Below, piece by piece: positions 2,910 through 28,575 of a stretch of DNA of 64,000 nucleotides. Origin of the DNA: Psychrobacillus sp. INOP01 (GTDB taxonomy: Bacteria; Bacillota; Bacilli; Bacillales_A; Planococcaceae); NCBI RefSeq assembly GCF_018140925.1, contig NZ_CP073315.1, positions 3,410,001 through 3,474,000 on the forward strand, read 5' to 3'. Position 1 is the first letter of the stretch. Each line of letters opens with the position of its first letter. A program made the position numbers and the translations under genes. The notes beneath the pieces were generated by a model. The model did not search any database, was not told the origin of the DNA, and worked only from the letters and a program-made list of their open reading frames with translations.

Positions 2910-2925
2910 TAGGGGAGAGAGTAAA

Positions 2926-3864
2926 ATGAGTAGTATATCATTATTGCAACAAGAACTGAATGAAGCCATTGTTGGAAGAGAAAATGAAATTAACTTTATG
3001 CTAATGGGGTTATTAGTACAAGGTCATGTGCTATTAGAAAGTGTTCCAGGATCAGGGAAAACAATGATGGCTAAGGCGTTTGCGGAAGCGATTCACGGTG
3101 AATTTAAACGTTTACAATTTACACCGGACGTATTACCTTCAGATGTTACGGGTATTAGTTATTTTCATCCACAAAAACAAGAATTCGTTCTTCGGGTAGG
3201 ACCAGTAATGAGTAATATATTACTTGCGGATGAGATCAATCGAGCAACACCACGAACTCAATCTAGTTTGTTGGAGGCAATGGAAGAAAAACAGGTTTCC
3301 ATAGATGGGGAAACCATTCCTCTTTTAAAGCCTTTCATGGTTATTGCAACACAAAACCCAGTTGAATCGCAACAGGGAACTTTTCCTTTGCCAGCAGCAC
3401 AATTAGACCGTTTTTTATTTAAATTGACGATAGATTATCCATCTCAAATAGAGGAAAAAAGCATTTTGCAGCAATTTGGTCGCACGCCAGGAAAAGTTAA
3501 TATCGATAAAATCGTCTCATTAGAACAGATTGGAAAGTGGACAGAACAAGTGAAAGAAGTAACTGTACATGAGGATATCATGACGTATATCGTTCAAATC
3601 GTACATTATACAAGAAATCATCCATACATAGAACTAGGGCTCAGTAGCCGTGCTTCTTTGGCGATTTTACAAGCTGCGAAGGCACATGCTTTTGTGAACA
3701 ATAGGACCTTCGTGACACCAGATGATGTGAAAAAGGTTATTGAGCCAGTATGTCTTCATCGGATGAAGTTATCATCTCAAGGTATGCTTATCCACAATCT
3801 AGCAGAGATTTTGAAAACAATAGTAGAAGAGGTGGAAGCACCTGTTGAGGCTAATGTACGATGA
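2926..3864 (+). CDS. MoxR-family AAA+ ATPase (first copy)
   Basis: A 312-residue AAA_3/MoxR ATPase. Walker A is ESVPGSGKT (38-46), Walker B ends in ADEIN (101-105), sensor 1 is ATQNP (141-145) and LDRF follows at 160-163. MoxR proteins are chaperone-like ATPases that usually work with DUF58 or VWA partners on protein-complex maturation. The downstream DUF58 gene overlaps by 4 bases (ATGA). The start at 2926 has AGGGGAGA seven bases upstream; the open frame extends to 2881 into the Spo0E-like gene, without support. It resembles B. subtilis YeaC in context. Confidence 0.9.
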   Translation: MSSISLLQQELNEAIVGRENEINFMLMGLLVQGHVLLESVPGSGKTMMAKAFAEAIHGEFKRLQFTPDVLPSDVTGISYFHPQKQEFVLRVGPVMSNILLADEINRATPRTQSSLLEAMEEKQVSIDGETIPLLKPFMVIATQNPVESQQGTFPLPAAQLDRFLFKLTIDYPSQIEEKSILQQFGRTPGKVNIDKIVSLEQIGKWTEQVKEVTVHEDIMTYIVQIVHYTRNHPYIELGLSSRASLAILQAAKAHAFVNNRTFVTPDDVKKVIEPVCLHRMKLSSQGMLIHNLAEILKTIVEEVEAPVEANVR

Positions 3865-5030
3865 ATTGGAATCGTCAAGATTCCGGTATGACCAAGAATA
3901 AAATGTACTTAGATATCCTCGTTTTTACTTTTATTTTTAGTTTTCTTTTTAAACAGTATATTTTTGTTGCGATTATTTCTTTCTTATTGTTAATCGGGCT
4001 AGTTCAAATAATTTATTATCGCAAAGTTGGGCAAAGGTTTGAATTTGTAAACGATAAAAAAAGAATACGATTAATGAAGAATACTTCCTCAGACCTTACA
4101 CTGACTTTTAACAATAAAGGACTGCCAATTTGGAACGCAGTTTTAACTATATCTTTTCAAACAAATATAGTGCCAAATGGAATACCTAATACAAGAGTGG
4201 GTGACTTTCACGAAGTTAAAATTCCTTTTTCGATTGGCTATAAAAAAAGTGTCACATTAAAGGTTCCTATAAAAGGAGTGAGTAGAGGACTTGCCAGGAT
4301 TAAGCAACTTGATGTCGAAATACCTCATCCTTTAACAGATGGTTCCATATTACTGGAGTTTAAACCATATATACTTTTGGATGCGATTGTGTTTCCAAAT
4401 ATATACGATATTAAGGATAATTTTGCTCCATCCAAACTGAAGCAAGGAGATTTGGCGTTGAATTCCTCATTGTTTGACGATCCTTTCTTTCCAGTAGGTA
4501 CAAGGGAATATGAGCCTGGTGATCAGTTTCATCACATACATTGGAAGGCTAGTGCGAAGACTGGGCAGTTACAGACAAGGGTTTTTACACGTGTGGCAAA
4601 TGTGTCTATATTATTTGTAGTCAATGTAGGTGAGAAGTATAGTGTTCTTTCAGATTTTGAAGATAAATTAGAGTGGCTTTCTTCTTACATCGATGCTTGC
4701 TACAAGGAAGATATCCCCTTTTCATTTGCGTTAAATGTTCGAACATCTGGAAAAGTCCCTTTTGTTTATCTCCCATTAGGTAGTGGGGATTCACATCGTA
4801 TACAAGCAATGGAATTACTCTCGATCCTCTCGATTGCGCATAGTATTATTCCTTTTGATAAATTATTAGCATACTTAGATTTGAATGAGGAGCTACCAGT
4901 TGCAACTTATGTGATGACGCATCGTGTAGAGACGTATACACCGTTACTACAACGATGGGAGCAGCGAACAAATGTATTATATAAGTCGCCTACAGAGATA
5001 GGGGGCATATCTCATGGATATAATGACTAA
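3861..5030 (+). CDS. DUF58-domain membrane protein
   Basis: A 389-residue protein. Two adjacent membrane helices at about residues 17-55 precede a beta-rich region and then the DUF58 core. The diagnostic stretch REYEPGDQFHHIHWKAS lies at about residues 215-231. The VWA-like region after it lacks a clear DxSxS metal site. DUF58 proteins are regular partners of MoxR ATPases. It overlaps the MoxR gene by 4 bases and the next gene by 17 bases, so the three are translated together. Confidence 0.85.
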   Translation: MNWNRQDSGMTKNKMYLDILVFTFIFSFLFKQYIFVAIISFLLLIGLVQIIYYRKVGQRFEFVNDKKRIRLMKNTSSDLTLTFNNKGLPIWNAVLTISFQTNIVPNGIPNTRVGDFHEVKIPFSIGYKKSVTLKVPIKGVSRGLARIKQLDVEIPHPLTDGSILLEFKPYILLDAIVFPNIYDIKDNFAPSKLKQGDLALNSSLFDDPFFPVGTREYEPGDQFHHIHWKASAKTGQLQTRVFTRVANVSILFVVNVGEKYSVLSDFEDKLEWLSSYIDACYKEDIPFSFALNVRTSGKVPFVYLPLGSGDSHRIQAMELLSILSIAHSIIPFDKLLAYLDLNEELPVATYVMTHRVETYTPLLQRWEQRTNVLYKSPTEIGGISHGYND

Positions 5031-6258
5031 CAATGTAAAAGTTCAAGCACAGTCGCTGGGGAAATACATTCAAGATGTATGGATCGTTGCGCTACCTTTG
5101 GTTATTTTTCAGCATGAGACAACCTTCGAATTACCTTTTTTATGGTTAATTCTTCAAACTATCATTGCTATATGTATGCAAATAACAATGGATAGAACGG
5201 GTCCAAATCCAATCATTCCGTTTATTGTTCCTACCAGTGTTCTACTAATATTATTTTTGTTTAATAGCCCTCTCTGGTTATTTATGTTAGGTGCAGGAAT
5301 TTCTATATGGCGTATACAAATAAGATTTAATAAAATGCAGGATGAGCAAACGGTTGAAAGTAACTATAATCTGAATTTCTTTTTAATATTTTTAGCTGTT
5401 CATTTTATTTGTTTTATCCTTGGATTAGAGAACTATATCTTTCCATTATATAGTGTAGTCATTTCAGGAGTTGTGTTGCCTGTCGCTTTGAGATTGTATG
5501 CTGTTTGGGTGAGCACGAATAAACAAAACTCAGCTTCTATGTCTCAGGTAATAGGCGGATTTTCCCTAGGATTGTTATCTGTAGCGAGCTTATCCACTGT
5601 GCTTTATTTTACGTTTCCGTTTATAAGAAAAGGACTTGATGTTCTGTTGGGGAAGGTTATGAGTATCGCCATCATTCCATTCATCCCATTGTTAGAATAT
5701 CTAGACAAGTTGTTGAGTCGGTTAGAAATTAAAGTACCGGAAGAAAGTGAACGTATCCAGTCAGAAGAGCAAACGGAATTGGAGCCAAACGAAATAGTTT
5801 CGGAAAGTATTGGTAACGGTTTTCCGTTTGAAATAATCTTCTTTGTGTTAGCAATTATTGTAATTGTATTTTTTATCCGATTATTATTGAAAAATAAACC
5901 AGATACGTTATCGGCAGATCCTAGTGCTATTCATTATATAAATAAAGAGTTAGAGGAGGATAGGAAAGAGAAACAGTTGAATGCTCAGCAATCCCTGTAT
6001 CTAGTGGATACGTCTCTATTAAGAGAGAAGTATAAAGAATTTGAAGTAGAGGCCACCTTATATGATTATGATCGAACTAAAAGTGAAACAGTACGTGAAT
6101 GGTTCCATCGGATGGAATGGACAGTGAAAGATGAGTTCTTCCAAGTTTATGAGGAAGTAAGATATGGCGGTCGAGCTATTCAGTCGGAGAAGGCTGAATT
6201 TTTCCTATCAAACCTCGAAATAATAAAAACAAAATATTTTTTTGAAAAAGATGTTTAA
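5014..6258 (+). CDS. Membrane protein resembling YebA without its transglutaminase domain (DUF4129-like C-terminus)
   Basis: 414 residues with about eight membrane helices in residues 20-235, another at about 272-295, and a cytosolic tail. The tail (VREWFHRMEW ... RYGGRAI) resembles the DUF4129 domain that ends transglutaminase-like proteins of MoxR/DUF58 operons. B. subtilis YebA, in the same position, is much longer with an extracellular transglutaminase core between these parts; no Cys-His-Asp core is seen here. The SD AGGGGGC fits the ATG at 5014. Function unknown. Confidence 0.75.
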   Translation: MDIMTNNVKVQAQSLGKYIQDVWIVALPLVIFQHETTFELPFLWLILQTIIAICMQITMDRTGPNPIIPFIVPTSVLLILFLFNSPLWLFMLGAGISIWRIQIRFNKMQDEQTVESNYNLNFFLIFLAVHFICFILGLENYIFPLYSVVISGVVLPVALRLYAVWVSTNKQNSASMSQVIGGFSLGLLSVASLSTVLYFTFPFIRKGLDVLLGKVMSIAIIPFIPLLEYLDKLLSRLEIKVPEESERIQSEEQTELEPNEIVSESIGNGFPFEIIFFVLAIIVIVFFIRLLLKNKPDTLSADPSAIHYINKELEEDRKEKQLNAQQSLYLVDTSLLREKYKEFEVEATLYDYDRTKSETVREWFHRMEWTVKDEFFQVYEEVRYGGRAIQSEKAEFFLSNLEIIKTKYFFEKDV

Positions 6259-14349: not shown

Positions 14350-14790
14350 ATGATAACTGTGAGCAGCAAAGATTTTTTACAAATTCCGATTTTGGAATAC
14401 ATTATTTCTGCAGAAAAGGTTGCACATGTACAATTAGGAAATAACGCAGAACATGCTTTACTTGTACTCACAAAGACTGGGTATTCTTCTATTCCAGTAT
14501 TAGATGTAAAATATAGACTTCAGGGCTTAATAAGCTCTCAACAAATTACAGATGAAATTTTAGGATTAGAACATATTGAATACGAACGTTTACCAGATTT
14601 AAAAGTAGACGATATTATGAAAACAGATATTGCTGTCATTCATGTGGATGAAAAATTTCAAAAAGGATTAGATTTACTAGTAAACAATCCTTATATTTGT
14701 GTAGTAGACGATGAGCAGACCTTTTTAGGGATTTTAACAAGAAGAGTCATTTTAAAACAAATGAAAAAGTACCTTTATCAAGCACAATAA
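14350..14790 (+). CDS. cbpB: CBS-domain c-di-AMP-binding protein CbpB/DarB (YkuL)
   Basis: 146 residues, almost only a CBS pair (about 20-75 and 85-140). In B. subtilis this protein binds c-di-AMP; without ligand it interacts with the (p)ppGpp synthetase Rel and with pyruvate carboxylase. The stretches TGYSSIPVLD and VNNPYICVVDD are the typical CBS beta-alpha repeats. The gene is followed by ccpC as in B. subtilis, which supports the name. Its own terminator follows. SD AAAGGAG lies upstream of ATG. Confidence 0.85.
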   Translation: MITVSSKDFLQIPILEYIISAEKVAHVQLGNNAEHALLVLTKTGYSSIPVLDVKYRLQGLISSQQITDEILGLEHIEYERLPDLKVDDIMKTDIAVIHVDEKFQKGLDLLVNNPYICVVDDEQTFLGILTRRVILKQMKKYLYQAQ

Positions 14791-15107: not shown

Positions 15108-15590
15108 GAACAGATACTAACTAAATGATTGGTTAAGGCGCTTATAATAACACGATGATTATTAATAGAATTAATACAAGTTCGGGTTGTTGCAAAGTAT
15201 GGATACTTATTTTAGAAAGTGTTGTCCTCTCAACTGTAATCACTAGGGTGTGCTCCAACAAGTCGTAGGAGCGAAACGACCACGTCCTTGTAGGCTCATG
15301 CGAAGCGTGCATCTGTGTAAAAAAACCTGATGAATAGATATTTTTATCCTACAAACATTTACTTACTTTGACACGTCTTTTACTTGCCTTCATGATGAAT
15401 TTACTCGCTTACTATTATAAAATACTTTGGCTCACTGTTAGTTTACATGCTCACAAAGGAGAATTACTTTCGAAAGGGTATTTTAGCCATTAATCTCATG
15501 CTTTGTATCTCCATCAATTCATGAAATGCGCGTATCCTATTAGAATGCGCATGAATGACATCACAATCCCATTTGAAAAGAGGAAAGCCA
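15108..15590. other. Long spacer ahead of ccpC with no gene
   Basis: About 480 bases. A GC-richer patch at about 15235-15320 (for example GTAGGAGCGAAACGACCACG) may be a remnant of another repeat, but no second copy was seen. No ORF with SD was found. The last 50 bases hold the ccpC leader with AAGAGGAAA as SD. Confidence 0.5.
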
Positions 15591-16466
15591 ATGGTAACAG
15601 ATTTTCTAATTATTAGAACACTAGCTGAGGAACAAAATATGCGAAAAGCAGCAGAAAGATTGTTTCTATCTCAGCCAGCGTTATCTCTAAGACTTCAAAC
15701 AATTGAAAAAGAGTGGAATGCGAAGCTTTTTTTAAGATCACAAAAAGGCTTAACTGCAACTCCAGAAGGAGAGCTTGTAATTGAGTTTGCTAACCAAATA
15801 CTTCAGCAAAGGGAAGAAGTATATGAAACGATTCAATCATTAACATCGAAAGTACATGGGACCTTGAAAATTGCATGTGCTTCTATTGTTGGTCAAAACT
15901 GGTTACCAATGGTCTTAAAGGACTTCGTGCAAACTTACCCAGAAGCAAAAATTTCCTTGTTGACTGGATGGAGCTCAGAAATCGTTAAATCGATTTACGA
16001 TGGAGAGGCTCAAATTGGAATAGTGCGTGGTCAATCTGATTGGAAGGGAAATAAAATTCATTTATTTAGAGATACTTTATATTTGGTGGACAAGGAGATG
16101 ATGTCCATTGATGAAGTGTTGACTACGGAAAAGCCTTTCATCCAATTCAAAAGTGATTCTAACTACTATCAGGAAATTCAACAATGGTGGCAAAAGCATT
16201 TTTCGATTAATCCTAAAAGACAAATTATCGTCGATCAAATTGAAACTTGTAAACAAATGGCGCTAAATGGAATAGGTTATGCGATTTTACCATCCATCAC
16301 ATTAACGGGTCATGAGGAAGTGAACAAAATACCCTTAACGAATAATGAAGAACAATTTGAATTGACGAGAGATACATGGCTTATCGGCTATGACGCGTCA
16401 TTCAATCTACCACAAGTTGATGCGTTTGTCGAAATTGTAAAAAAACATGCTAAAAATTTTCAATAA
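15591..16466 (+). CDS. ccpC: LysR-family catabolite control protein CcpC
   Basis: 291 residues. The N-terminal helix-turn-helix reads NMRKAAERLFLSQPALSLRL (18-37) and a periplasmic-binding-like effector domain follows from about 90. Phrases such as HGTLKIACASIVGQNWLP and DQIETCKQMALNGIGYAILP closely follow B. subtilis CcpC, which represses citZ and citB and responds to citrate. It lies directly after cbpB, as in B. subtilis. The start at 15591 has AAGAGGAAA upstream; the frame from 15555 lacks an SD. Confidence 0.88.
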   Translation: MVTDFLIIRTLAEEQNMRKAAERLFLSQPALSLRLQTIEKEWNAKLFLRSQKGLTATPEGELVIEFANQILQQREEVYETIQSLTSKVHGTLKIACASIVGQNWLPMVLKDFVQTYPEAKISLLTGWSSEIVKSIYDGEAQIGIVRGQSDWKGNKIHLFRDTLYLVDKEMMSIDEVLTTEKPFIQFKSDSNYYQEIQQWWQKHFSINPKRQIIVDQIETCKQMALNGIGYAILPSITLTGHEEVNKIPLTNNEEQFELTRDTWLIGYDASFNLPQVDAFVEIVKKHAKNFQ

Positions 16467-16524: not shown

Positions 16525-18930
16525 ATGCATATAAAAAAGTTTGTGATGGTTATTTCAGCATTTATGATTTATTTTATTTTAACGCCATCAATAGAAGCAT
16601 TAGCAGCGCCTGAACTAAATGTAAAAGTGACAACTGGATTTAATGGAAAAGCAAAATATGGAGAAGGCTTGCCTATATCACTAACAGTGGAAAACAAAGG
16701 AGATGCGTTTTCAGGTGATATTGTTCTTGATCTAGCTGAGTCCTATAATTTAGGAAATGCTCAGTCTATTCCGTTCGAGATTGGAGCAGGTGAAACAAAG
16801 ACCATACAAATTGCAGCAAGTGGGTTAGCGGAAGATTATATGTATCAAGGAACTAATGTTCAAATGATTCACTTTTTCGAAGGAGGATGGGAAAAAGGTA
16901 AGTCCATCGACTTCAAAGGGAATAAAACGTTCAGAACAAACTTTCAAGATCCAGCAACTATCTACTATTTAACATTAACGGAAAGTGCTGATCGCTTAAA
17001 GGTTCTCAATCAGCTTAAGCAACCAAATCAAGTTAACGATGAAATTATTCATGTAGCACAACAGAATAACTTTGCATTACCTGAAGAGGCAGTTGCTTGG
17101 GAAATGGCAGATTACATCATTATAGATGAGTTCGTGATTGCTGATTTAACTGAACAACAACAGCAAGCGCTTATCGATTATGTCTCTACCGGTGGAATAA
17201 TTGTAGTTGGTGCTTCTGATAATGTAACTGCAGAGCTTGGGAATCTAAGCAACTACTTACCATTAAATTTACATACATCAACTCAAAGTATTACTGCTCA
17301 GCAAGCAAGTGCATTAACAGCGAATAACTTATTGACAAATGATCTAAAGATATATGATGCGTCATTAACTAGTGGATCGTCACCGTTGATACAACTGGAT
17401 GGGACAATATTAGCAGGTAAGAAACAGCTCGGTAGCGGAACGATCATTCAAACTACTTTTTCACTAGGAGATGCTCCTTTGGCTGCTGATCCTGTGTATA
17501 GTGATTTAATGTCAACTATACTGCAGGCAGTACAAGTGAAAAATACACATAGTATGAACGGTTATAATAATCTAAAAGACGAGCTTGTATATAATTTAGG
17601 TGATACAAATTCGTTATTTAGTTCCTTTAAAGTATCAACACCATTAATGATTGGAATTGTCATTGTCTACATGATCATAATAGTTCCATTGTTATATATT
17701 ATTTTGAAAAGAAAAGATAAACGAGAGTATGCCTGGGGTATCATTCCTCTCACAGCTATAATTGCATCTCTAGCAATTTTTGGCTACGGTGCAAAGGACA
17801 GAATTGCAAGGCCTCAAGTACAGCAATCCTCATTCCTTCAAGTAAATGAGGATAAGAGCCTGAATGGATACTATGCGGAATCGATTTTAAGTAATAAAAG
17901 CGGAGACTTCACTTTTGAGGCACCAATTACCACTACGATGGTTGCAAAGAGAAGTACAAACTCGTTTACGGGTCAAACTGCAAATGTGTATGAAAATGCA
18001 ATAATGGAAAAACATGCAACGAATAGTGAGCTAACATTCCGTGATGTTGGTTATTGGTCTGTATCTTCATTGTTTGGAGAGACACAAATCCAGGACGTAG
18101 GTAATTTCGAGGTAGATTTAAGAGTCGATTCTAGTAAAATTCTCGGTACAGTTCAAAATAATTTTCCTTTTGGATTAAAAGATGTCGCTATTTGGTCAGG
18201 TAGTAAACTATATAAATTAGGTGATTTAGCCGCTGGAGAAAAGCTAGAGGTTGATAAAGAACTTGGTACAGTTATGCTTATGCCAACTTCGAACCCATAT
18301 GTTAATGCAAATTACGGAGCATTTGCGAACAACCAAATCGATTTAATGTCCCAACGTAAACAAGCCCTATATTCATCAAGCATTATATTTAAAAACACTA
18401 ATTCGACTCCAGCTATTACTGGCTTTGCAGAGGACAATATTCTTCCGGTTGAATTGAAGGATAAAAAAGTAGAGCTTTCTGCCTTACATTTAGTTATTCA
18501 ACCTTTCACAGCTACTACTATTTTCTCGGGAGAGTTTACGCTTCCAGCTAATATGTTTACAGTCAATGTGAATACCGAGCAATACGGCAAATATATGGAG
18601 CCGGTTCAAAATAGTAACCTCGAATGGTATTTAGATGAAGGGGAATATAATGTGTATTGGGCAGTACCAGAAACACTTCCTTTAGACAAAGTCAATTGGA
18701 CGCAGCTACAAATTGCGAATACAGATCGTAATTCCCATACAATTGAGATTTGGAACTTAAAAACAGAATCTTTTGAAGAAATCACTGAAAGCCGTTTTAC
18801 TTTAACTGAAAATATTGATACGTATATCAATGAAACAGGAATAATACATTACAAATTGATCAAAAAATCAGTACAAGGTGATCCATATACACGACTTCCA
18901 GAAGTGCGTATGAAGGGGGAAGTGAAGTAA
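16525..18930 (+). CDS. Large secreted/membrane protein heading the ABC-MoxR-VWA operon
   Basis: 801 residues. An N-terminal signal peptide (hydrophobic to about 27) is followed by an extracytoplasmic part to about 370 that includes a beta-rich domain and an alpha/beta region (YIIIDEFVIADL, then VSTGGIIVVGASD) reminiscent of DUF4350/GATase-like domains. Two membrane helices lie at about 372-393 and 404-424, and a long extracytoplasmic beta-rich part follows to the end. No catalytic motif is visible. AAAGGGGGG precedes the ATG. It overlaps the ABC ATPase gene by one base, so the two are coupled. Function unknown. Confidence 0.75.
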   Translation: MHIKKFVMVISAFMIYFILTPSIEALAAPELNVKVTTGFNGKAKYGEGLPISLTVENKGDAFSGDIVLDLAESYNLGNAQSIPFEIGAGETKTIQIAASGLAEDYMYQGTNVQMIHFFEGGWEKGKSIDFKGNKTFRTNFQDPATIYYLTLTESADRLKVLNQLKQPNQVNDEIIHVAQQNNFALPEEAVAWEMADYIIIDEFVIADLTEQQQQALIDYVSTGGIIVVGASDNVTAELGNLSNYLPLNLHTSTQSITAQQASALTANNLLTNDLKIYDASLTSGSSPLIQLDGTILAGKKQLGSGTIIQTTFSLGDAPLAADPVYSDLMSTILQAVQVKNTHSMNGYNNLKDELVYNLGDTNSLFSSFKVSTPLMIGIVIVYMIIIVPLLYIILKRKDKREYAWGIIPLTAIIASLAIFGYGAKDRIARPQVQQSSFLQVNEDKSLNGYYAESILSNKSGDFTFEAPITTTMVAKRSTNSFTGQTANVYENAIMEKHATNSELTFRDVGYWSVSSLFGETQIQDVGNFEVDLRVDSSKILGTVQNNFPFGLKDVAIWSGSKLYKLGDLAAGEKLEVDKELGTVMLMPTSNPYVNANYGAFANNQIDLMSQRKQALYSSSIIFKNTNSTPAITGFAEDNILPVELKDKKVELSALHLVIQPFTATTIFSGEFTLPANMFTVNVNTEQYGKYMEPVQNSNLEWYLDEGEYNVYWAVPETLPLDKVNWTQLQIANTDRNSHTIEIWNLKTESFEEITESRFTLTENIDTYINETGIIHYKLIKKSVQGDPYTRLPEVRMKGEVK

Positions 18931-19859
18931 TGATAGAAATTAAAGGATTAACTAAAAAGTATGGCTCCTTTTATGCATTAAATGATTTAAATTTAACACT
19001 ACAAGAAGGCACGGTATTTGGTTTTGTTGGAGCAAATGGAGCAGGTAAGTCTACAACCTTTTCAATCCTGGCTACATTGCTTCAGCCGACCTCTGGAGAT
19101 GCTTTTGTAAATGGTAAAAGTGTAAGGACAGATGCAAGTGAAGTGCGCAAACAAATTGGCTATATGCCTGATTTTTTTGGAGTGTATGATCAATTAAAAG
19201 CGAATGAGTATCTAGATTTTTATGGCGCAAGTTATGGAATTTCCGAAGCGGAAAGAAAGGTATTAATTCCGCAGTTGCTCGATCTTGTCAACTTGACCCA
19301 TAAACGTTATGAATATGTCGATTTACTTTCACGAGGGATGAAACAGCGATTATGTTTGGCTCGTTCATTAATACATGACCCAAAGGTTCTTATATTGGAT
19401 GAACCGGCTTCAGGACTTGATCCACGGGCACGTGTAGAGATGAGAGATATTTTAAAACAGCTAAAAGGGATGGGGAAAACGATCCTCATTTCCTCACATA
19501 TATTACCAGAGTTAGCTGAAATGTGTGATGAAATAGGTGTGATTGATGGAGGAAAGCTTATTGCACATGGCTCTGTTGCAGATATTCAAGCACAGCTTGC
19601 AGGAGAAAGACATATTACAGTGAAGGTGAAGGGATTATTAGAGAATGTTGCGACCTTCTTTGAAGAGGATCCTTTTGTATCTTCAGTAGAATTACACACA
19701 GAGAAAAATTCAGTTACCTTCCATTATCGAGGGACTGAGGATGATCAAATCAATTTACTTAAAAAAGCGATGGATCATTCGATAAAAATTATTTCCTTTT
19801 CCGAGACAGAAACGGATTTAGAGGATGTCTTTATGGAAATCACGAAAGGAGCGAAATAA
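18930..19859 (+). CDS. ABC transporter ATP-binding protein (ABC-2 exporter type)
   Basis: 309 residues. Walker A is GANGAGKS (34-41), the signature is LSRGMKQRL rather than LSGGQ, and Walker B is VLILDEPASGLDP. A C-terminal extension of about 90 residues follows the nucleotide-binding domain. The family (CcmA/GldA-like) drives ABC-2 permeases that export or position membrane-linked substrates. The partner permease begins one base after its stop codon. Part of the eight-gene operon. Confidence 0.9.
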   Translation: MIEIKGLTKKYGSFYALNDLNLTLQEGTVFGFVGANGAGKSTTFSILATLLQPTSGDAFVNGKSVRTDASEVRKQIGYMPDFFGVYDQLKANEYLDFYGASYGISEAERKVLIPQLLDLVNLTHKRYEYVDLLSRGMKQRLCLARSLIHDPKVLILDEPASGLDPRARVEMRDILKQLKGMGKTILISSHILPELAEMCDEIGVIDGGKLIAHGSVADIQAQLAGERHITVKVKGLLENVATFFEEDPFVSSVELHTEKNSVTFHYRGTEDDQINLLKKAMDHSIKIISFSETETDLEDVFMEITKGAK

Positions 19860-19860
19860 C

Positions 19861-20703
19861 ATGAAGCAGGTGTTTTCTAATCCAGTATTGGTAAAAGAAA
19901 TAAAGTTGCGCTTTCGTTCCCCAAAAAGTTTCATAGGAATTCTATTTTATTTAATTGCTATGTGTATTTTTGTATTTGGGTTTATCATGCTAACTACTCA
20001 ATTTTCGGGTACTGGTTATTTCCGCCCTGAGGAAAGCTTTTTTATGTTTACGATGCTCACCTATATTCAACTTGGGTTAATACTTTTCATCACTCCAGGC
20101 TTAACAGCAGGTGCTATTAGCTCGGAACGAGAAAAACAAACATTGAATATATTATTAACAACAGCGCAGACTTCATTTCAAATTATTTTTGGCAAATTAA
20201 CTTCCTCCATTGCATTTTTACTTTTGTTATTAATAGCAGGCTTGCCTATTTATAGCATGGTTTTCTTATTCGGTGGGGTATCACCAGGTCAATTAGGCAT
20301 TATTTTCTTATTTTTCTTTTTAACAATGCTTGCCATCGGAAGCATCGGAATTATGTACTCGACCATCATTCGTAAAACAATTGTTTCTATGATAGCGACA
20401 TACGGGACAATGATCTTTTTAAGTGCGGTAACCGGTTTTATCTACTTAGTTATAACAGGCATGAATACTATGGTATCAGGTTCACTAGCATCATCACCAG
20501 TAGGTCATTTCTTTGCGAGTATTAACCCAGTTGTGTTAGTTCTGACGCTTGTATCACCAGGTTCTGATACTTTTATAACAGATACAACTAAAGTCGATTT
20601 CCCAATTTGGGCAGGCTATGCCATCTTTTATATTTGTATTACAGCATTTGCTATTTTTATATCGGTTAAAAAACTGCGGGTTAATATGAATCGGACAAAG
20701 TGA
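19861..20703 (+). CDS. ABC-2 type permease
   Basis: 280 residues with six membrane helices (starting at about 18, 60, 100, 130, 165 and 255). The stretch ISSEREKQTLNILLTT near residue 90 is characteristic of ABC-2 permeases related to GldF and YhaP. The ATG at 19861 has AAAGGAGCG upstream and lies immediately after the ATPase stop codon; a frame from 19825 would run inside the ATPase gene. With the ATPase it should form a homodimeric-permease exporter. The substrate is unknown. Confidence 0.85.
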   Translation: MKQVFSNPVLVKEIKLRFRSPKSFIGILFYLIAMCIFVFGFIMLTTQFSGTGYFRPEESFFMFTMLTYIQLGLILFITPGLTAGAISSEREKQTLNILLTTAQTSFQIIFGKLTSSIAFLLLLLIAGLPIYSMVFLFGGVSPGQLGIIFLFFFLTMLAIGSIGIMYSTIIRKTIVSMIATYGTMIFLSAVTGFIYLVITGMNTMVSGSLASSPVGHFFASINPVVLVLTLVSPGSDTFITDTTKVDFPIWAGYAIFYICITAFAIFISVKKLRVNMNRTK

Positions 20704-20715
20704 GGAGGACAATAG

Positions 20716-22098
20716 ATGAATAGTCCAAAAAAGTTAATCCGGTACGTTACTAGAGCTAAAAACAGTCTGGCAGTGGAGCATTATATTAGAATGCTCCAAG
20801 CAGCCTTATTTTATGGCTTTAGTGCTACTGCGATGATTCTTTTAGTATCTCGTTTGTTTGTCTTTCCGTATTTTTTAAGAACTTCCATTCTTGTTGGAAG
20901 TTCTGTTTTTATAGGCACGTTTTTGTATGCTTTTTGGAAAAGACCTTCAAAAAATGAAGCAGTACAGAAGTTGGATTCCTTCTATTTGGATAATTTATTG
21001 GTGAGTGCTTTAGCTTTCATGCAGGAAAAATCTTTGCTCGTTAAAGGGTTAATAGATAAAGCTGAAAAAAACAGTGAAATTGCATTCCAGCTGTTCAAGA
21101 AACGTGATAAAAAGTACTTTTTACCTAAGTGTATTACGGGATTTGTTTTGGCGCTTGCAGTAGTACTCTTTTTGTATGCATTTCCAGCTGCTACGCAATT
21201 AGAGGCTAAGGATTTGGAAAAAGAGCAGGAAATTGTAAAGGAGCTAAAGAAAGAAGTAAGTAAGCTAGAGAAAAAAGAGTTATCAAAGTCAGTAAAAAAA
21301 GAATTGAATGATCTTAAAGAAAAATTAAAAGAAGCAGATACAGCAGAAAAAGCTTTACGTGAAGTAGTGAAAAAGCAAAAGGAACTAGCACTTAAAGAAC
21401 AGAAGCTAGAACAAAAAAAAGAGGTGGCTGAGCAGGAAGGTGCATCTGAATCATCTTTAACAGCTGAGGAGCAAAAAGAGCTAGCTTCTTTAGAGGATAT
21501 TAGTAATTCACTTGCAAAAAGTGCTTCTAATTCTCAAACTACTTTAAGTAAGATGGGTAAATCATTACCGTTCAGTTCCAGCGGGATAGCCCTGGGAAAT
21601 AGCAATGCACAAACTTCAAGTAGCTCTAAAGGTCAACAGGGACAAAATCAATCGAGTCAAGGTCAAGGACAGGGCCAAGGTCAAGGACAGGGTCAAGGTC
21701 AAGGACAGGGCCAAGGTCAAGGACAGGGTCAGGGACAAGGACAAGGACAAGGACAAGGACAAGGACAAGGACAAGGACAAGGACAAGGCCAGGGCCAGGG
21801 ACAAGGTAATGGCCAAGGAGCAGGTTTAGGTTCAGGAGGTAGAGATTTACTTTCTATTCCTACAAGAATTGGAGGAAATGGAGAAACTTCGGTCGATTCA
21901 GGTGGACTTGGAGAAGGAGATTCCGCTAGTGAGAAACCAGCGGATACACCTATTACTCGAGGTTCTGCAAGACCATATGAAGAAGTGGTCAACGAATATT
22001 CTGAGTCGTATATAAAAAGCTCCGAGCGTATGCAGTTACCATCCGATTTACAAAGGATTGTTCAAGATTACTTTTCATCAGTTGAAAATAGTGAATAA
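20716..22098 (+). CDS. Membrane-anchored coiled-coil protein with a (Gly-Gln)24 repeat
   Basis: 460 residues. Two membrane helices near the N-terminus (about 32-50 and 55-72) and another at about 140-157 are followed by a charged coiled coil of Lys and Glu (about 165-245). A Ser/Gly/Gln-rich linker then contains 24 perfect Gly-Gln pairs (316-363). The last 60 residues (SARPYEEVVNEYSESYI) are ordered and resemble the C-terminal segment of DUF4175-like proteins in MoxR operons. The SD GGAGGA is close upstream. It probably scaffolds the MoxR/VWA proteins, which is inference. Confidence 0.75.
   Translation: MNSPKKLIRYVTRAKNSLAVEHYIRMLQAALFYGFSATAMILLVSRLFVFPYFLRTSILVGSSVFIGTFLYAFWKRPSKNEAVQKLDSFYLDNLLVSALAFMQEKSLLVKGLIDKAEKNSEIAFQLFKKRDKKYFLPKCITGFVLALAVVLFLYAFPAATQLEAKDLEKEQEIVKELKKEVSKLEKKELSKSVKKELNDLKEKLKEADTAEKALREVVKKQKELALKEQKLEQKKEVAEQEGASESSLTAEEQKELASLEDISNSLAKSASNSQTTLSKMGKSLPFSSSGIALGNSNAQTSSSSKGQQGQNQSSQGQGQGQGQGQGQGQGQGQGQGQGQGQGQGQGQGQGQGQGQGQGQGQGQGNGQGAGLGSGGRDLLSIPTRIGGNGETSVDSGGLGEGDSASEKPADTPITRGSARPYEEVVNEYSESYIKSSERMQLPSDLQRIVQDYFSSVENSE
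21661..21804 (+). repeat. Tandem repeat encoding Gly-Gln pairs
   Basis: Four 18-base units beginning GGTCAAGGACAGGG (21661-21732) are followed by nine copies of GGACAA (21733-21786) and three variant 6-mers. All units are multiples of six, so slippage would change the length of the protein linker without breaking the frame. Confidence 0.95.
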
Positions 22099-22109
22099 CG
22101 GAGGGAACT

Positions 22110-23102
22110 ATGACTTTTACAACAGAAGACTACATGTATATGAGTAAGCGTTTAGATGATGTAAGAACAGAAATAGGTCAATTTATCGTTGGTCAAAAGG
22201 AGGCAGTTGAGTTTTCTATCTATTGTGTGTTAGCTGATGGGCATGCCCTTTTAGAGGGATTACCTGGATTAGGTAAAACTATGCTCATACGAACAGTTTC
22301 GGAAGTGTTAGATTTATCCTTTTCACGTATTCAGTTCACCCCAGATTTGATGCCTTCAGATATCACTGGTACGAGTATGATTGAGCGATTAGAAAATGGA
22401 AAACAACAATTTACCTTTCAAAAAGGACCAATTTTTAGCCAAATGGTGTTAGCGGATGAAATAAATCGAGCAACACCGAAAACACAAAGTGCGCTTCTAG
22501 AAGCTATGGGTGAAAAAACAGTTACCGTTCTTGGAGAGACCAAACAAATGGATCGGCCATTCTTTGTGCTTGCAACGCAAAATCCAATTGAAATGGAAGG
22601 TACCTATCCATTGCCAGAAGCTCAAATGGACCGTTTCCTATGCAAGATACTCGTTTCCTATCCTTCCAAAGACGAATTAATGGAAATAACGAAACGTACT
22701 ACTGGCGGACAAACGATTCAATTGAATAAAATAATGAATGCAGAAGAAATAGTGCATGCACAGCAGATGGTTAAGGAAGTACTTATAGCAGATGATATGT
22801 TGGAATACGCAGTGGATATCATTGCTGCTACACATCCTGGAGAAGCAAGTATTCCTGAAATTGCTCAGTATGTTCAATACGGAAGTGGTCCACGTGGCTT
22901 ACAAAGTCTAATCAAGCTTGCCAAAGCAAGAGCATTAGTTGCAGGACGTTACCATGTATCGATTGCAGATATTAAAACAGTTGCTAAACCCGTATTGAGG
23001 CATCGTTTATTACTCAATTATGAAGGAGAAGCAGAAGGAAAAACGGCAGAAGAACTGATCGACCTTATCCTACAAACCGTTAAGCAAGGACAAACTGTAT
23101 GA
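22110..23102 (+). CDS. MoxR-family AAA+ ATPase (second copy)
   Basis: 330 residues. Walker A is GLPGLGKT (50-57), Walker B ends LADEINRATPKTQ (about 115-127), and the sensor 1 region ATQNPIEMEGTYPLPEAQMDRF is the MoxR hallmark. It is a hexameric cytosolic ATPase expected to act on a complex with the downstream DUF58 and VWA proteins. It is diverged from the first MoxR in this window, so it is not a recent duplicate. The stop overlaps the DUF58 start by 4 bases. Confidence 0.92.
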   Translation: MTFTTEDYMYMSKRLDDVRTEIGQFIVGQKEAVEFSIYCVLADGHALLEGLPGLGKTMLIRTVSEVLDLSFSRIQFTPDLMPSDITGTSMIERLENGKQQFTFQKGPIFSQMVLADEINRATPKTQSALLEAMGEKTVTVLGETKQMDRPFFVLATQNPIEMEGTYPLPEAQMDRFLCKILVSYPSKDELMEITKRTTGGQTIQLNKIMNAEEIVHAQQMVKEVLIADDMLEYAVDIIAATHPGEASIPEIAQYVQYGSGPRGLQSLIKLAKARALVAGRYHVSIADIKTVAKPVLRHRLLLNYEGEAEGKTAEELIDLILQTVKQGQTV

Positions 23103-23974
23103 GTATCGAACAATTAGTTCCAAAGGATTGGGCAGGGAAGCTAAGTAGATTATCCATAACAACCAAATCAAAACTAAGAGGTCAGCATAAAGGTTCTCAT
23201 CGCTCACAACGTTTTGGTGCCTCTCTAGACTTTTCAGACTTTCGGGAGTACACACCAGGTGACGATGTACGGCAAATAGATTGGAATGTATATGCACGTA
23301 CCGATAAGTATTTTATCAAACGGTTTTTAGACGAACAAGAAATGCGGGTGCATATTTTACTTGATACGACTAAGTCTATGGGAGGTTCTATTAAATGGAC
23401 CTTCGCTAAACAATTAGCAGCCTCGTTGGGAATTCTTGTATTACAAAGAGATGATCGATTATCCTTTTCAGCCGTTAGTGAAGGGAAAAAGCTTCCTTTT
23501 AGAAGAAAAGGAGCAACTTACCGGAAAGCCTTTATCCAAACTATTTCTGACATGGACGATCCAACCATGAGTTCCTCTTTTACAGATAATGCACTACCCT
23601 TTCTACCGAAAGATAGTACAGTTTTATTTGTCATAACTGATTGCTTAGAAAGTATTGAATCATGGGAACGATTACTTCAAAAACTGCCAAAGTTCGCTAG
23701 TGATATTAGAATTTTACAAGTAGTTACTAGTGAAGAGCTTGCTCCATCATACGGTGGAGATGTGCAATTAGAGGATATCGAAACATCGGAAAAAGTAAAT
23801 GTATCCATATCTTCTAGAGTACTAAAAGCCTATCATAAGGAAAGAAAAGAGCATCAGCAACGAATAGAACTACTTTGTCATAAGTTTGGTATTAAAATAC
23901 TTCAGGTAAATGCAGATGAAGGTATTTCGCATACTATGTTTCATCAATTACTACGAGCAAATTGGGTGCAATGA
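23099..23974 (+). CDS. DUF58 protein (soluble type)
   Basis: 291 residues without membrane helices. The DUF58 hallmark REYTPGDDVRQIDWNVYART lies at about 49-68, followed by a VWA-like fold with DTTKS at 89-93, a partial metal site. Proteins of this type (YeaD/BatB-context) are the usual partners of MoxR. It is much shorter than the DUF58 protein at 3861, which has membrane helices. It is followed after 11 bases by the first VWA protein. Confidence 0.9.
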   Translation: MSIEQLVPKDWAGKLSRLSITTKSKLRGQHKGSHRSQRFGASLDFSDFREYTPGDDVRQIDWNVYARTDKYFIKRFLDEQEMRVHILLDTTKSMGGSIKWTFAKQLAASLGILVLQRDDRLSFSAVSEGKKLPFRRKGATYRKAFIQTISDMDDPTMSSSFTDNALPFLPKDSTVLFVITDCLESIESWERLLQKLPKFASDIRILQVVTSEELAPSYGGDVQLEDIETSEKVNVSISSRVLKAYHKERKEHQQRIELLCHKFGIKILQVNADEGISHTMFHQLLRANWVQ

Positions 23975-23985
23975 GGTGAAAAGGT

Positions 23986-25743
23986 TTGGGTATTAATCAG
24001 TTAATATATTCTTGGACAGCCATTTTACCAATCGCTGTGCTTCTGTATTATTTTTTTCGAAAAAAATATGTCAAAAAGTCTGTCTCCTCTACACTGTTTT
24101 GGCAAGAGGCAATGAAGGAAACGAAAGCTTCTCCGTATTTGCAGCATTTGCAAAGGAATGCTTTGTTTTATTTACAAATGCTGGCTATGCTTTTGCTTGT
24201 TCTAGCATTACTCCAACCATATTGGAAAACGAAAGCAATAGCTGGGGAACAGATTGTATTTATCGTAGATACTTCTGCAACGATGAAAGTAAATGCGAAT
24301 AATTCTATCTCTCTTTTTGAACAGCATAGGGAGAAAATGCTTGAGCTAGTTGAACAGTTAGCAGGCAAGCCTCTTACATTAATCACTACCGGAAACGAAC
24401 CAGCTGTCCTATTACGCCAAGAAATGAATACAGAGCAAATGATAAAAGAAATTAAGAAACTAGAAATAAGCTATGAAGCAGAAAATATGTCAAAATCTTT
24501 GGATTTTGCCCAATCCTTTTTTCAAAACAAAGCAACCTCTGTTTATATTTTTACAGATGAATTAGAAAGACAATCTCTTCCCTTACAACATGAAAATGTA
24601 AGCTGGAATGTAGAAGCTTTAACCACAAATATTACGAATGCATCTATTAAACGTTTTGGTGCAACAGAAACTGCAAATGGAATCTCGACGCTAGTTCAAC
24701 TGGAAAATCAATCAAATAAAGAGGTTGTAACAGAGCTGACGATATCAAATGAAGAGAAGAAATTAGTCTCTGAGGTAGTTAAATTGCCACCAAAAGAAAC
24801 GATTACATTATCTTTTGATGACCTAGTGAATTCAAGTTATTTGAAAGCAAATATAGACATACAAGATTCTTACCTTTTAGATAATGAGAATATTGTTTTC
24901 ATGCAGGATCAATTGTCTAATGTTTTCATAGATAGCTCCATTCATTCGCTCGTTCGAACTGCCTTTCAGTCATTAGATATTAATGTGAGCAGTGTACCTT
25001 CAGAACAAGTAGGGTTGTTAAAGGAAGAGGGAATAATTGTCACCAATCAATTTGGAATAAAGGGTGAAACTCAGAAACCAACCTTATATATAGGGAGGAA
25101 TGATGCATTTCCTAAAGAAGTAAATGGAATAGTTCAGACTACGGAATCTCCGTTATTTGCTTTTGCTAATTTATCGGATATATATGTGAGCTCGGTATAT
25201 CCCCCTATAGACGGATATACTACTATTGCTACTATTGGAGAGGATCCTTTCATCCAAACCTCACCAACTGGAGATATTATTATTCTTGCAGATATTCAAA
25301 TGACGGATTGGCCTTTGAGTCCAACGTTTCCACTTTTCATGTGGAGTGTGAAGGAGCATCTTTCAGCAGGAAGTGATTATTTAGGAACATTCACTCCAAA
25401 CGAGCGAAAGCCTCTATCCCTTGGAGCTACGGCGGAGTGGGAAATTTATACAATGGATGATGAGTATGAATATGCCATTGAAAATGGTGGAAAATTCGTT
25501 GCACCAAGTGAACCAGGACTATATGTTCTGCGTTCAAACGACATCGTGAAGAATCTTTCTATTATATTGCCACAAGAGGAAAAAGTGATTGATAAAGGAA
25601 CTTCGTATAAAGTGACTGGACAACAGATAAATGCTTCAGATGACCATCAAGCCCATTCCTTTGTTCCTTATATATTATTCTTATTAGTATTGCTATTTGT
25701 TATAGAGTGGGAGGTGCAAAGACGACGTGGATTTACGAGTTGA
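23986..25743 (+). CDS. BatA-like membrane protein with a VWA domain
   Basis: 585 residues. The BatA N-terminal module has two membrane helices (about 7-22 and 58-78). A VWA domain with an intact metal site DTSAT (Asp 95, Ser 97, Thr 99) comes next. A long extracytoplasmic part follows, and a final membrane helix (about 560-577) ends in a basic tail. The start is TTG at 23986, with AGGTG upstream. It overlaps the next gene by 17 bases. Related proteins in Bacteroides (Bat) are linked to stress tolerance, but no function is proven here. Confidence 0.82.
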   Translation: MGINQLIYSWTAILPIAVLLYYFFRKKYVKKSVSSTLFWQEAMKETKASPYLQHLQRNALFYLQMLAMLLLVLALLQPYWKTKAIAGEQIVFIVDTSATMKVNANNSISLFEQHREKMLELVEQLAGKPLTLITTGNEPAVLLRQEMNTEQMIKEIKKLEISYEAENMSKSLDFAQSFFQNKATSVYIFTDELERQSLPLQHENVSWNVEALTTNITNASIKRFGATETANGISTLVQLENQSNKEVVTELTISNEEKKLVSEVVKLPPKETITLSFDDLVNSSYLKANIDIQDSYLLDNENIVFMQDQLSNVFIDSSIHSLVRTAFQSLDINVSSVPSEQVGLLKEEGIIVTNQFGIKGETQKPTLYIGRNDAFPKEVNGIVQTTESPLFAFANLSDIYVSSVYPPIDGYTTIATIGEDPFIQTSPTGDIIILADIQMTDWPLSPTFPLFMWSVKEHLSAGSDYLGTFTPNERKPLSLGATAEWEIYTMDDEYEYAIENGGKFVAPSEPGLYVLRSNDIVKNLSIILPQEEKVIDKGTSYKVTGQQINASDDHQAHSFVPYILFLLVLLFVIEWEVQRRRGFTS

Positions 25744-28324
25744 CCAACCGCTATGGCTATTGTTATTAATTCCTATTGGTATTTATTTTATTTGGACTTG
25801 GAAAAAAGATAAGAAGAGCTTAAAAAGAGAAGGAAAAATAGTATTTTGTATACGAATTATAGCTATCCTATGTTTGATATTAGGTATTACTAATCCATAT
25901 TTATTATTACCTATTAAAGAAGAACAGGTATTATTTTTGGTAGACCGTTCTGCTTCCCTACATGGAACTGATCAGCAAATAACGGAATGGATAGAAGAAA
26001 GTTTACAATCTAAAAAAGCTTCTCATCTAGTAGGTGTTTATACTTTTGCAGAAGACTTTCAAACTGAAATTGCCATAACAGATGGGGAAGTAAATTTACC
26101 TGTTTTTACCCCTATGTTAGAAGCCGGGAATACTGATTTAGCAAAGGCCTTACAGCTTTCAACAGGCATAGTAGAGCCTAATAAGGCAACAAGAATTGTA
26201 CTCTTTACTGACGGACTTGAAACGACTGGATCTGTTAGTGATGAAATCGTCAAAATAGCTGGAGGAAATGTAACGATAGATGTTGTTCAAATGGCAAGAC
26301 TATCGTCGGAGGATGTTGCGATAACTTCCTTTGAAACGCCACCAGTAGCTTTTGAAGGTGAGCAGCAACAACTAAATGTCACGCTAGAGGCGACGACTAA
26401 TACAGAGGCAGAGTTACTTCTATATCAAAATGATCAGCTAATCACGCGAGAGCAAATTAGTGTAGAGCCAGGAACTAATACGTTTACATTTCGAAATGCC
26501 TCCAAGGGGGAAGGATTACTTAAGTATGAAGCTCAAGTAGTACTAGCAGAGGATGGGTTAATTGAGAATAACAAGTTGACAAGTGTCACGAATGTGGAGA
26601 GCTCTCCGAGACTATTAGTAGTCACTCATGATGGTAATTCTTCTAATATTGCGACTGTGATTGATCAGCAGGCGATTGCAACGGATGTTATTGATGCAAG
26701 TGTACTACCTTTTGATTTATCAAATTATTTAGCATACGATGCTATTATATTTGATAATGTACCTGGTCATGTCGTCGGAGAACAAAAGATGACGGTTATT
26801 GAACAGGCAGTGAAAAACTTTGGTGTCGGCTTTATGATGGTTGGCGGGAACAACAGTTTCGGTTTAGGAGGTTATTTTAAGAGTCCAATTGAACGATTAT
26901 TACCAGTTGAGATGGAGATAAAAGGAAAACAGCAACTGCCTTCATTAGGGTTAATCATCGTAATGGACCGGTCAGGTAGTATGAGTGGAACTAAATTAGA
27001 ATATGCGAAGGAAGCAGCGGCACGTTCTGTGGAAATGCTTCGAGAAGGAGACACTCTTGGGTTTATCGCATTTGATGATCGACCATGGGAAATTATTGAA
27101 GCCTCTCCATTAAACGATAAAGAAACCTCTGTCGAAAGTATACTTTCAGTAGGAGCAGGCGGAGGAACAGAAATATATACGAGTTTAGCTCTAGCATATG
27201 AAAAATTATCTCCTCTAAAATTACAGCGAAAGCATATTATATTATTGACGGATGGTCAGTCAGCTACAAGCAATGACTATCAAACGCTGTTAGAGGACGG
27301 GAAGAATAATTTGATAACCGTTTCCACTGTTGCTGTTGGACAAGATGCAGATAGAGCATTATTAGAAAGTTTAGCAGAAATGGGAGGGGGCACGTTTTAC
27401 GATGTCCAAGATGAATCCACCATTCCAGCGATAATGTCCACCGAGACAGCAATGATTTCCAGAACCTATATTGAGGATAATCCATTCTATCCAACTATTT
27501 ATGGGGACGCAGCATGGACGAGCTTATTTGCAGAAGGAGTTCCGCAAATGAATGCTTATATAGCAACAACTGCGAAACAAACTGCATCCGTTATTGCAGA
27601 AAGTGAAAAAGAAGACCCCGTATTAGCTGAATGGATGTATGGACTCGGTCGCACAATTGCATTTACATCGGATTCTACCGGTGAGTGGAGCGGAGACTTT
27701 GCAAGATGGAGTAATTGGGGAGACTTTTGGAATACGGCAGTATCGAGGTTACTACCAGCCTATAGTGAGGTGCCTTTTTCTATCCAAAAGTCATCGGATG
27801 AATCATTTACCGTTACGGATCCTACTGGCAAGTCATCATTTCTAGAGATAGCTGCTGTCAATGAAAAAGGGGAAGAGCTTTCAGTAACATCTGAAGCACT
27901 TGCACCTGGTAAAGCAAGAGTAACAGTAGACAGTGAACCAGGACTTGTGTTCTTTCGTATTTCCAATGAACAGGATGCTGTTTATCAAGCAGGTATTTCC
28001 ATTCCCTATAGCGAGGAATACAAAATACAAAAGCCGAATACAGCTATTCTGGAGATGATTACTAGTAGAACGAATGGAAAGCTACTGACGGAAGCTTCTG
28101 AAGCTTTCCGTGAAATGGAGCTATCTAGCTCAGAGAAACAATCTATTCAACAATTTCTTCTAATGTTAGCTATCTTCTTATTTTTCATCGATATTACGAT
28201 AAGAAGATTTGGTTTCAATCTATTGCTTGCTCCGTTTAAAAGAGCAGGTAAAAAAATGGATCCAGTAAATTCAACTACTACAACAAATGTAGAAAAATTA
28301 GTTAGAGAAAAGAAAAAAAGATAA
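25727..28324 (+). CDS. Large membrane protein with two VWA domains and a GATase-like region
   Basis: 865 residues. Two N-terminal membrane helices lead to a first VWA-like domain with DRSAS (Asp 73, Ser 75, Ser 77). Beta-rich segments follow, then an alpha/beta region with MVGGNNSFGLGGY. A second VWA domain with a perfect MIDAS DRSGSMS (Asp 414, Ser 416, Ser 418) comes next, then a glutamine-amidotransferase-like/beta region, a membrane helix near 815-833 and a basic tail. The start is GTG within the upstream gene. It is the last gene of the operon. Two metal sites in one chain suggest cation-dependent binding of partners. Confidence 0.82.
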   Translation: MDLRVDQPLWLLLLIPIGIYFIWTWKKDKKSLKREGKIVFCIRIIAILCLILGITNPYLLLPIKEEQVLFLVDRSASLHGTDQQITEWIEESLQSKKASHLVGVYTFAEDFQTEIAITDGEVNLPVFTPMLEAGNTDLAKALQLSTGIVEPNKATRIVLFTDGLETTGSVSDEIVKIAGGNVTIDVVQMARLSSEDVAITSFETPPVAFEGEQQQLNVTLEATTNTEAELLLYQNDQLITREQISVEPGTNTFTFRNASKGEGLLKYEAQVVLAEDGLIENNKLTSVTNVESSPRLLVVTHDGNSSNIATVIDQQAIATDVIDASVLPFDLSNYLAYDAIIFDNVPGHVVGEQKMTVIEQAVKNFGVGFMMVGGNNSFGLGGYFKSPIERLLPVEMEIKGKQQLPSLGLIIVMDRSGSMSGTKLEYAKEAAARSVEMLREGDTLGFIAFDDRPWEIIEASPLNDKETSVESILSVGAGGGTEIYTSLALAYEKLSPLKLQRKHIILLTDGQSATSNDYQTLLEDGKNNLITVSTVAVGQDADRALLESLAEMGGGTFYDVQDESTIPAIMSTETAMISRTYIEDNPFYPTIYGDAAWTSLFAEGVPQMNAYIATTAKQTASVIAESEKEDPVLAEWMYGLGRTIAFTSDSTGEWSGDFARWSNWGDFWNTAVSRLLPAYSEVPFSIQKSSDESFTVTDPTGKSSFLEIAAVNEKGEELSVTSEALAPGKARVTVDSEPGLVFFRISNEQDAVYQAGISIPYSEEYKIQKPNTAILEMITSRTNGKLLTEASEAFREMELSSSEKQSIQQFLLMLAIFLFFIDITIRRFGFNLLLAPFKRAGKKMDPVNSTTTTNVEKLVREKKKR

Positions 28325-28355
28325 ATAGGATAAAAAACAATAAAGAAGGAGAGTA

Positions 28356-28388
28356 GCGCCAGAAATTGTATCTTCCGGCGCTTCTTTT
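28356..28388 (+). terminator. Terminator of the ABC-MoxR-VWA operon
   Basis: A 9-bp stem with one mismatch (GCGCCAGAA at 28356-28364 with TTCCGGCGC at 28373-28381), then TTCTTTT. It is near-identical to the hairpin at 548-572. Confidence 0.8.
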
Positions 28389-28439: not shown

Positions 28440-28575
28440 ATAAGATTACCGAGAAAAAGAGGTGCTAGTCGTGACTGACGTCACGACTAGCACCTTTAAA
28501 AAATCAGTCGGTAATACTATAGCAAAAAGTCTATTCAAAGCACACCGTAAACAATAGAATCAAGTTTTGACCTTT
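28440..28575. repeat. Mosaic intergenic repeat, family 1, copy B (16-bp perfect hairpin)
   Basis: A perfect 16-bp stem (28460-28475 with 28480-28495) has loop TGAC and inner arm TAGTCGTGAC. The outer pair ATTACCGA at 28445-28452 and TCGGTAAT at 28508-28515 is perfect. The family tail runs to about 28575. It lies between the converging VWA operon and MFS gene. Confidence 0.8.

Follow-up and report, generated by a model that had tools for sequence, protein, structure and literature searches.

What does a MoxR ATPase act on when its gene shares an operon with an ABC exporter? Clusters of MoxR, DUF58 and VWA genes are widespread, and mostly unexplained. Here, we consider eight adjacent genes that join such a cluster to an ABC ATPase and an ABC-2 permease. 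They lie in the window, which is the whole 64,000-nucleotide stretch of Psychrobacillus sp. INOP01 DNA that was analysed. A preliminary description had read the eight genes as a single envelope machine.

Organisation and surroundings of the operon

An ORF check of the window found all eight genes, called g1 to g8, closely spaced on the forward strand between positions 16525 and 28324. The start of g3 was set by comparison with relatives. The longest ORF opens at 19825, and the codon matching 19861 is the ORF start in seven of nine Psychrobacillus loci. Taking 19861 as the start, the gap between g2 and g3 is 1 base. From the ORF coordinates, the genes are separated by overlaps of 1, 4 and 17 bases, or gaps of 1, 12, 11 and 11 bases. 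This agrees with the preliminary description, as do the eight genes, their domains, a (Gly-Gln)24 run and three metal-site motifs (compared with ORFs, Pfam matches and alignments).

The operon had also been described as closed by a terminator. As far as the fold goes, this holds. There is a terminator-like hairpin 3' of the operon, on the forward strand at about 28349-28388 (-17.1 kcal/mol), and an equally stable fold was obtained in 3 of 200 shuffles. The hairpin is, however, absent from the list returned by a consensus terminator scan. A separate inverted repeat at 28460-28495, with 16-pair arms and a 4-base loop, was listed as terminator-like on the reverse strand. Apparently, this is a terminator-like element of the convergent MFS gene.

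Upstream, CbpB (14350-14790) and CcpC (15555-16466) pass their NCBIfam cut-offs. In B. subtilis, these genes are named ykuL and ykuM. The operon had been placed at the position of ykuN-ykuU in that organism, and the flanks, CbpB and CcpC, fit this. The BatA-domain match was absent from the B. subtilis control genome, and a B. subtilis counterpart of the MoxR genes was rejected on that basis. At two other loci, genes for DapH and a dapL-like amidohydrolase precede g1 (L058, 2221-4079; L100, 16024-18834, between CcpC and g1). The window holds two further features. The first, 10 kb upstream, is another MoxR, DUF58-like and membrane protein cluster (2881-6258; 327, 389 and 414 aa). Only its MoxR is confirmed by profile, and relatives of the third protein turned up in just 7 of 19 other genomes examined. 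The second is a set of Bacillaceae-1 RNA matches at 57878-57944 (forward), 59198-59263 (forward) and 59271-59337 (reverse), two of which converge with 7 bases between them.

The encoded proteins

The first three genes, hereafter the triad, begin with g1 (16525-18930). Profile matches and hydropathy describe its 801-residue product as a surface or membrane protein, with a signal-like helix, a GATase1/flavodoxin-like domain (about residues 143-255), two predicted TM helices (residues 376-394 and 405-423), an Ig/CARDB-like region and a C-terminal region. Its Pfam matches to DUF7408 and CARDB are both under the cut-off. Named relatives at nine loci, eight from Psychrobacillus and one from 'Bacillus sp. 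FJAT-22090', are 76-93% identical. The product of g2 (18930-19859, 309 aa) is a DrrA/GldA-like ABC ATPase according to Pfam (ABC_tran, PF00005, 107.2 bits, cut-off 25) and NCBIfam. Walker A is intact in all 38 sequences having letters at that site. The g3 gene (19861-20703) encodes an ABC-2 permease (ABC2_membrane_2, PF12679, 36.3 bits, cut-off 27.2) with seven predicted TM helices and the motif EREKQT at about 20125-20142. With ABC_tran and ABC-2 membrane domains both above cut-off, g2 and g3 are classed as a predicted ABC-2 exporter.

The remaining genes, g4 to g8, we call the module. The g4 protein (20716-22098, 460 aa) has three TM helices, a coiled coil read from the sequence, a (GlyGln)24 linker and a conserved C-terminal tail. 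The Gly-Gln run is exact at residues 316-363 (21661-21804). Among close Psychrobacillus relatives (L037-L045) its length and interruptions differ; we rejected it as a special element and consider it a low-complexity linker of variable length. In the tail (about 21961-22086), Y421, Y452 and F453 are kept in 39 of 39 aligned sequences. Note that these 39-row motif alignments exclude L085 and L095.

The MoxR AAA+ ATPase is encoded by g5 (22110-23102, 330 aa), which matches PF07726 (AAA_3) with 209.3 bits (cut-off 27) and PF17863 (AAA_lid_2) with 62.8 bits (cut-off 22.7). Its Walker A (22257-22280) and Walker B (22452-22469) motifs are intact in all 39 sequences. Next, g6 (23099-23974, 291 aa) encodes a DUF58 protein, by Pfam, with no predicted TM helix. 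Besides the three metal-site motifs of the VWA proteins, this protein carries a fourth, D89-x-S/T-x-S (23363-23377), conserved in 39 of 39.

The last two genes encode membrane VWA proteins. That of g7 (23986-25743, 585 aa, TTG start) has a BatA N-terminal double TM, a VWA domain and a C-terminal TM helix (Pfam BatA and VWA_2). That of g8 (25727-28324, 865 aa, GTG start) has a double TM, VWA1, a GATase1-like domain split by an inserted VWA2, and a C-terminal TM helix (Pfam VWA/VWA_2 and GATase1_like). The D-x-S-x-S/T sites are at D95 of g7 (24268-24282) and at D73 (25943-25957) and D414 (26966-26980) of g8, and the aspartate is conserved in 38, 38 and 39 of 39 sequences, respectively. Profile alignment indicates that g7 and g8 are homologous across the double TM, the VWA domain and the region after (E 5e-20). 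The GATase1-like domain is common to g1 and g8 (hhalign E 7.7e-5, but with a probability of only 61.8%), and both profiles match PDB 3soz. AlphaFold models of g1 and g8 (ten sequences each) were poor, with mean pLDDT of 40.7 and 47.7.

Hydropathy and the positive-inside rule suggest how these proteins are arranged. Basic TM1-TM2 loops and basic tails of g7 and g8 place their VWA domains outside. Similarly, charges around the TM helices of g4 predict an outer location for its coiled coil, linker and tail. MoxR and DUF58, both lacking a predicted TM helix, are placed inside. The earlier proposal, that MoxR loads or resets VWA receptors, clashes with this predicted topology. Since the VWA domains are predicted outside and MoxR is cytosolic, MoxR would act via DUF58. 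Hence, the cytosolic g6 protein is the likelier direct partner of MoxR, ahead of the VWA proteins.

Conservation of the eight-gene order

The reading of a single conserved system would sit badly with genes that are rarely neighbours in related genomes. Searches for g8 covered 101 genomes of the family, 200 of the order, 299 of the class and 398 of the phylum, and we fetched 80 loci holding g8, hand-picked for spread. These were 20 from the same family, 20 from other Bacilli and 40 from other Bacillota classes. The family regions comprise 19 genomes of the family search and one of the order search; 64 other family genomes have a full g8. Those from other Bacilli are 20 of the 32 genomes of the class that have full g8 but fall outside the family. 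The rest are 40 of 56 phylum matches, leaving out two family genomes, five VWA-only matches and nine others. Each locus was scanned in six frames with profiles of all eight proteins.

Rare neighbourhood was not what we found. All eight genes occur in the same order and on the same strand at 60 of the 80 loci: all 20 from the family, 18 of the 20 from other Bacilli families and 22 of the 40 from other classes. Such recurrence means that the arrangement exceeds chance. The 60 include loci with extra DNA (L201, about 3.4 kb between g6 and g7; L179, about 2 kb between g5 and g6), with split frames in g2 and g8 (L094) or with g4 in two frames (L178, L196 and L200). Ten of the other 20 loci are a variant without the ABC ATPase, seven run into contig ends (L085, L175, L195, L199, L203, L206 and L213) and three fit no clear plan (L205, L208 and L214). 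L205 seems to have no permease.

Triads without the module

Of 101 family genomes, 79 have the triad protein g1. In the class, a deep profile matched it in 110 of 299 genomes, including one very weak match (G303, E 8.4e-4) that was scored as no g1 in the co-occurrence count. Within the family, 65 genomes have g1 and full g8, 14 have g1 only and 22 have neither. The equivalent class numbers are 55, 54 and 190. Conversely, among the Bacilli searched, none of the 65 family or 55 class genomes with full-length g8 was without g1. Fisher tests of this co-occurrence, ignoring relatedness and made on overlapping genome sets, gave 4e-13 (family) and 9e-30 (class).

At all 34 loci fetched for g1 (14 of 14 in the family, 20 of 20 in the class), g1, g2 and g3 stand together without an intact g4-g8. 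These loci are all 14 family genomes with g1 minus full g8, 18 of the 54 such class genomes, and two second copies from genomes that also hold the full operon. Three triads (L109, L110 and L129) meet a contig end 1.6-3.7 kb past g3, and g1 of L110 is short. The preliminary description can be taken to mean one indivisible machine. We reject this, given the stand-alone triads; nor was an ABC ATPase found at 10 other loci.

Relics point to module loss in place. Two g8 fragments remain at L105, in the family, and L111, in another family, retains weakly matching pieces of both g4 (32 bits) and g8 (45 bits). In a tree of triad proteins, with 42 rows (21 full, 14 triad and 7 outgroup), the full and triad states interchange at least nine times within the family, also when only well-supported branches are trusted. 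The outgroup was seven of the 18 full loci from outside the family. Because these rows were all picked from full operons, the tree alone gives no proof of direction, and part of the changes could be gains by transfer. Judged from gene content, the module in Bacilli is accessory: lineages can lose it and still keep g1-g2-g3. After loss, triad genes accelerated more than controls did in six of eight sister comparisons, which are not independent; two of the speed-ups had p<0.05 and one comparison was significantly opposite. Signs were mixed too when controls were omitted. A yebA-like control was dropped, being present in only 8 of 20 genomes.

Some stand-alone triads of other Bacilli have additional genes just upstream. 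Candidates for an ECF sigma gene, picked by size and place, were confirmed in eight of eight cases tested (L115, L116, L118, L121, L122, L124, L125 and L130). For a beta-propeller, six of eight candidates pass the PD40 cut-off (L115, L116, L119, L120, L121 and L124); that in L125 matches a propeller below cut-off and that in L130 matches nothing. The genes at L115, L116, L118-L122, L124, L125 and L130 are a possible sigma/anti-sigma pair. An ECF sigma factor in this position suggests envelope-stress control. At L113, a further upstream gene encodes a radical-SAM protein.

Loci without the ABC ATPase

No ABC ATPase match was found at ten g8 loci (L095, L190-L194, L204, L209, L211 and L212), nine of which come from other classes. 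L212 reaches a contig end right behind its g1-like gene. At nine of the ten, one membrane protein of 222-298 aa fills the g2-g3 slot, between the g1-like and g4-like genes. A profile built from eight slot proteins aligns with g3 along its length (hhalign E 6e-12, probability 97.5%), and reversed, shuffled and FtsW controls for this alignment all gave <1% probability. At L193, L209 and L211, a single very long open frame covers the matches to both g7 and g8, and two or three VWA-type sites are present by pattern. Here, the two VWA proteins seem to be fused.

In ABC-2 permeases, E[RK]Exx[TS] is the element facing, and coupling to, the ATPase. Of 94 permeases encoded beside an ATPase, 93 have it, those with the 15 lowest scores included (the exception is L184), whereas none of nine slot permeases without one does. 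L209 was omitted from the count, the frame in its slot being ambiguous. Conversely, the MoxR Walker motifs are intact at all ten loci, and the DUF58 site is matched at nine, with no match in L095. Each ATPase part is thus missing at some loci, leaving g1 and the permease as the constant core. The ATPase-less loci could be supplied with an ABC ATPase from elsewhere in the genome. A bolder possibility, which we regard as rather doubtful, is that the same ABC-2-type core is driven, depending on the lineage, by the ABC ATPase, by both motors (the majority of loci seen) or, where the permease has lost E[RK]Exx[TS], by the MoxR ring alone.

Relation to known systems

The nearest published prediction is an archaeal one, built around arCOG01314 (DUF4350/GldG-like), MoxR and vWA proteins and predicted to act in secretion or remodelling (Makarova 2015, PMC5898192). 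As here, according to the available text of that paper, a GldG-like flavodoxin-fold surface protein adjoins a MoxR ATPase and vWA proteins. Unlike here, neither an ABC ATPase nor an ABC-2 permease is listed in that text for the arCOG01314 neighbourhood, which does include Ig-like and S-layer-like proteins; a SalXY-type ABC transporter is mentioned for another archaeal neighbourhood (PMC5898192). Our g1 gave no match to PF14258 (DUF4350) at E<=0.1, nor did three other g1-like proteins match it. A distant g1-like protein, at L194, matches below the cut-off (E 0.0012, 19.5 of 30.4 bits).

The triad resembles GldA-GldF-GldG, with an ABC ATPase, an ABC-2 permease and a large surface subunit. Among NCBIfam models, GldA ranks second for g2. 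The scores fall short of the equivalog cut-offs (GldA, 243.1 of 402.6 bits; GldF, 28.1 of 288.5), and the GldG model has no match at E<=0.1 in the operon proteins. To our knowledge, the Gld system has no MoxR module.

The module resembles the Bat operon, of which BatD is part and which, as far as we know, carries no ABC genes. Alike are MoxR, DUF58, and the BatA-type and BatB-like VWA membrane proteins in g5-g8; g7 has the BatA N-terminal domain (PF07584, 43.8 bits, cut-off 25.9) together with its VWA domain. No TPR or BatD-type partner was matched by Pfam or NCBIfam at E<=0.1 in the eight proteins. By sequence, g4-g8 would be only a partial member of the Bat group, given in the available text as DUF58, VWA and TPR (PMC11834572).

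Finally, NorQ-NorD also pairs a MoxR ring with a VWA/metal-site partner acting on a membrane protein, and, in the part of the paper available, acidic residues in a membrane helix are proposed as the target of the VWA metal site (PMC9976466). A pair of this type would have a VWA 'finger' inserted in the MoxR pore and a metal site that binds an acidic target residue. Unlike in NorQ-NorD, the cytosolic partner here would be DUF58, with two more VWA proteins predicted to lie outside. In open-access literature, judged by titles and the starts of abstracts, we found no description of the eight-gene cluster or its ATPase-less form.

A proposed complex and its alternatives

On balance, we lean towards a single complex with two attached ATP-driven parts, as suggested by gene content, order, losses and motifs. 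The GldG-like surface protein g1 and the permease g3 would form the constant core, to which both the ABC ATPase g2 and the module would attach. The MoxR ring would work through DUF58, as NorQ does via the VWA domain of NorD, and so remodel or actuate the core from the cytosolic side. On the outer face, meanwhile, g7, g8 and g4 would contribute VWA metal sites, GATase1-like domains and a tail tethered by the linker, and may clamp or sense g1 there. The most likely job of the core would be controlled handling of an envelope substrate or of envelope stress.

Alternatively, MoxR, DUF58 and the VWA proteins might only mature g1-g3, by cofactor or metal insertion or by folding g1, much as NorQD serves nitric oxide reductase, and stay outside the working cycle. 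Studied MoxR-VWA pairs are described, in the portions of those papers available, as maturation factors (PMC9976466; PMC3893208), and a helper role allows the 34 of 34 triads that lack the module. Their survival also means that maturation cannot strictly require it. In addition, the module stays at loci where the transport ATPase was not found. We consider a purely assembly-related role unlikely.

It is similarly improbable, in our view, that the operon encodes a sensor or adhesion complex rather than a transporter, with VWA and GATase1-like domains binding wall polymers or ligands and the ABC-2 core relaying force or signal. The large outer domains of g1, g7 and g8, the conserved metal sites of g7 and g8, and the ECF sigma genes described above, usually accompanied by a beta-propeller gene, would suit such a function. 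However, conservation of E[RK]Exx[TS] in all but one of the ATPase-linked permeases indicates that ATP coupling seems important there. Lastly, that two unrelated systems merely share an operon in Bacillota is very improbable: g1-g3 do occur without g4-g8, but full g8 never lacks g1 in the Bacilli genomes counted, gene order is kept across classes, g1 and g8 have a domain in common, and at ATPase-less loci the module still adjoins g1-like and permease-like genes.

For the single complex that we favour, the series of triad alone, triad with module, and module without ABC ATPase names the g1-permease core as the likely client. The question of what MoxR acts on would thereby become directly testable. 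Two unrelated molecular motors may serve one envelope complex. In open-access literature, we found no ABC permease described as having switched to an AAA+ motor. A hand-over between motors, if true, would make this a dual-motor membrane machine in which an ABC permease has been transferred to an AAA+ motor. Should the ATPase-less form prove functional, the view that ABC-2 permeases depend on an ABC ATPase would have to be revised.
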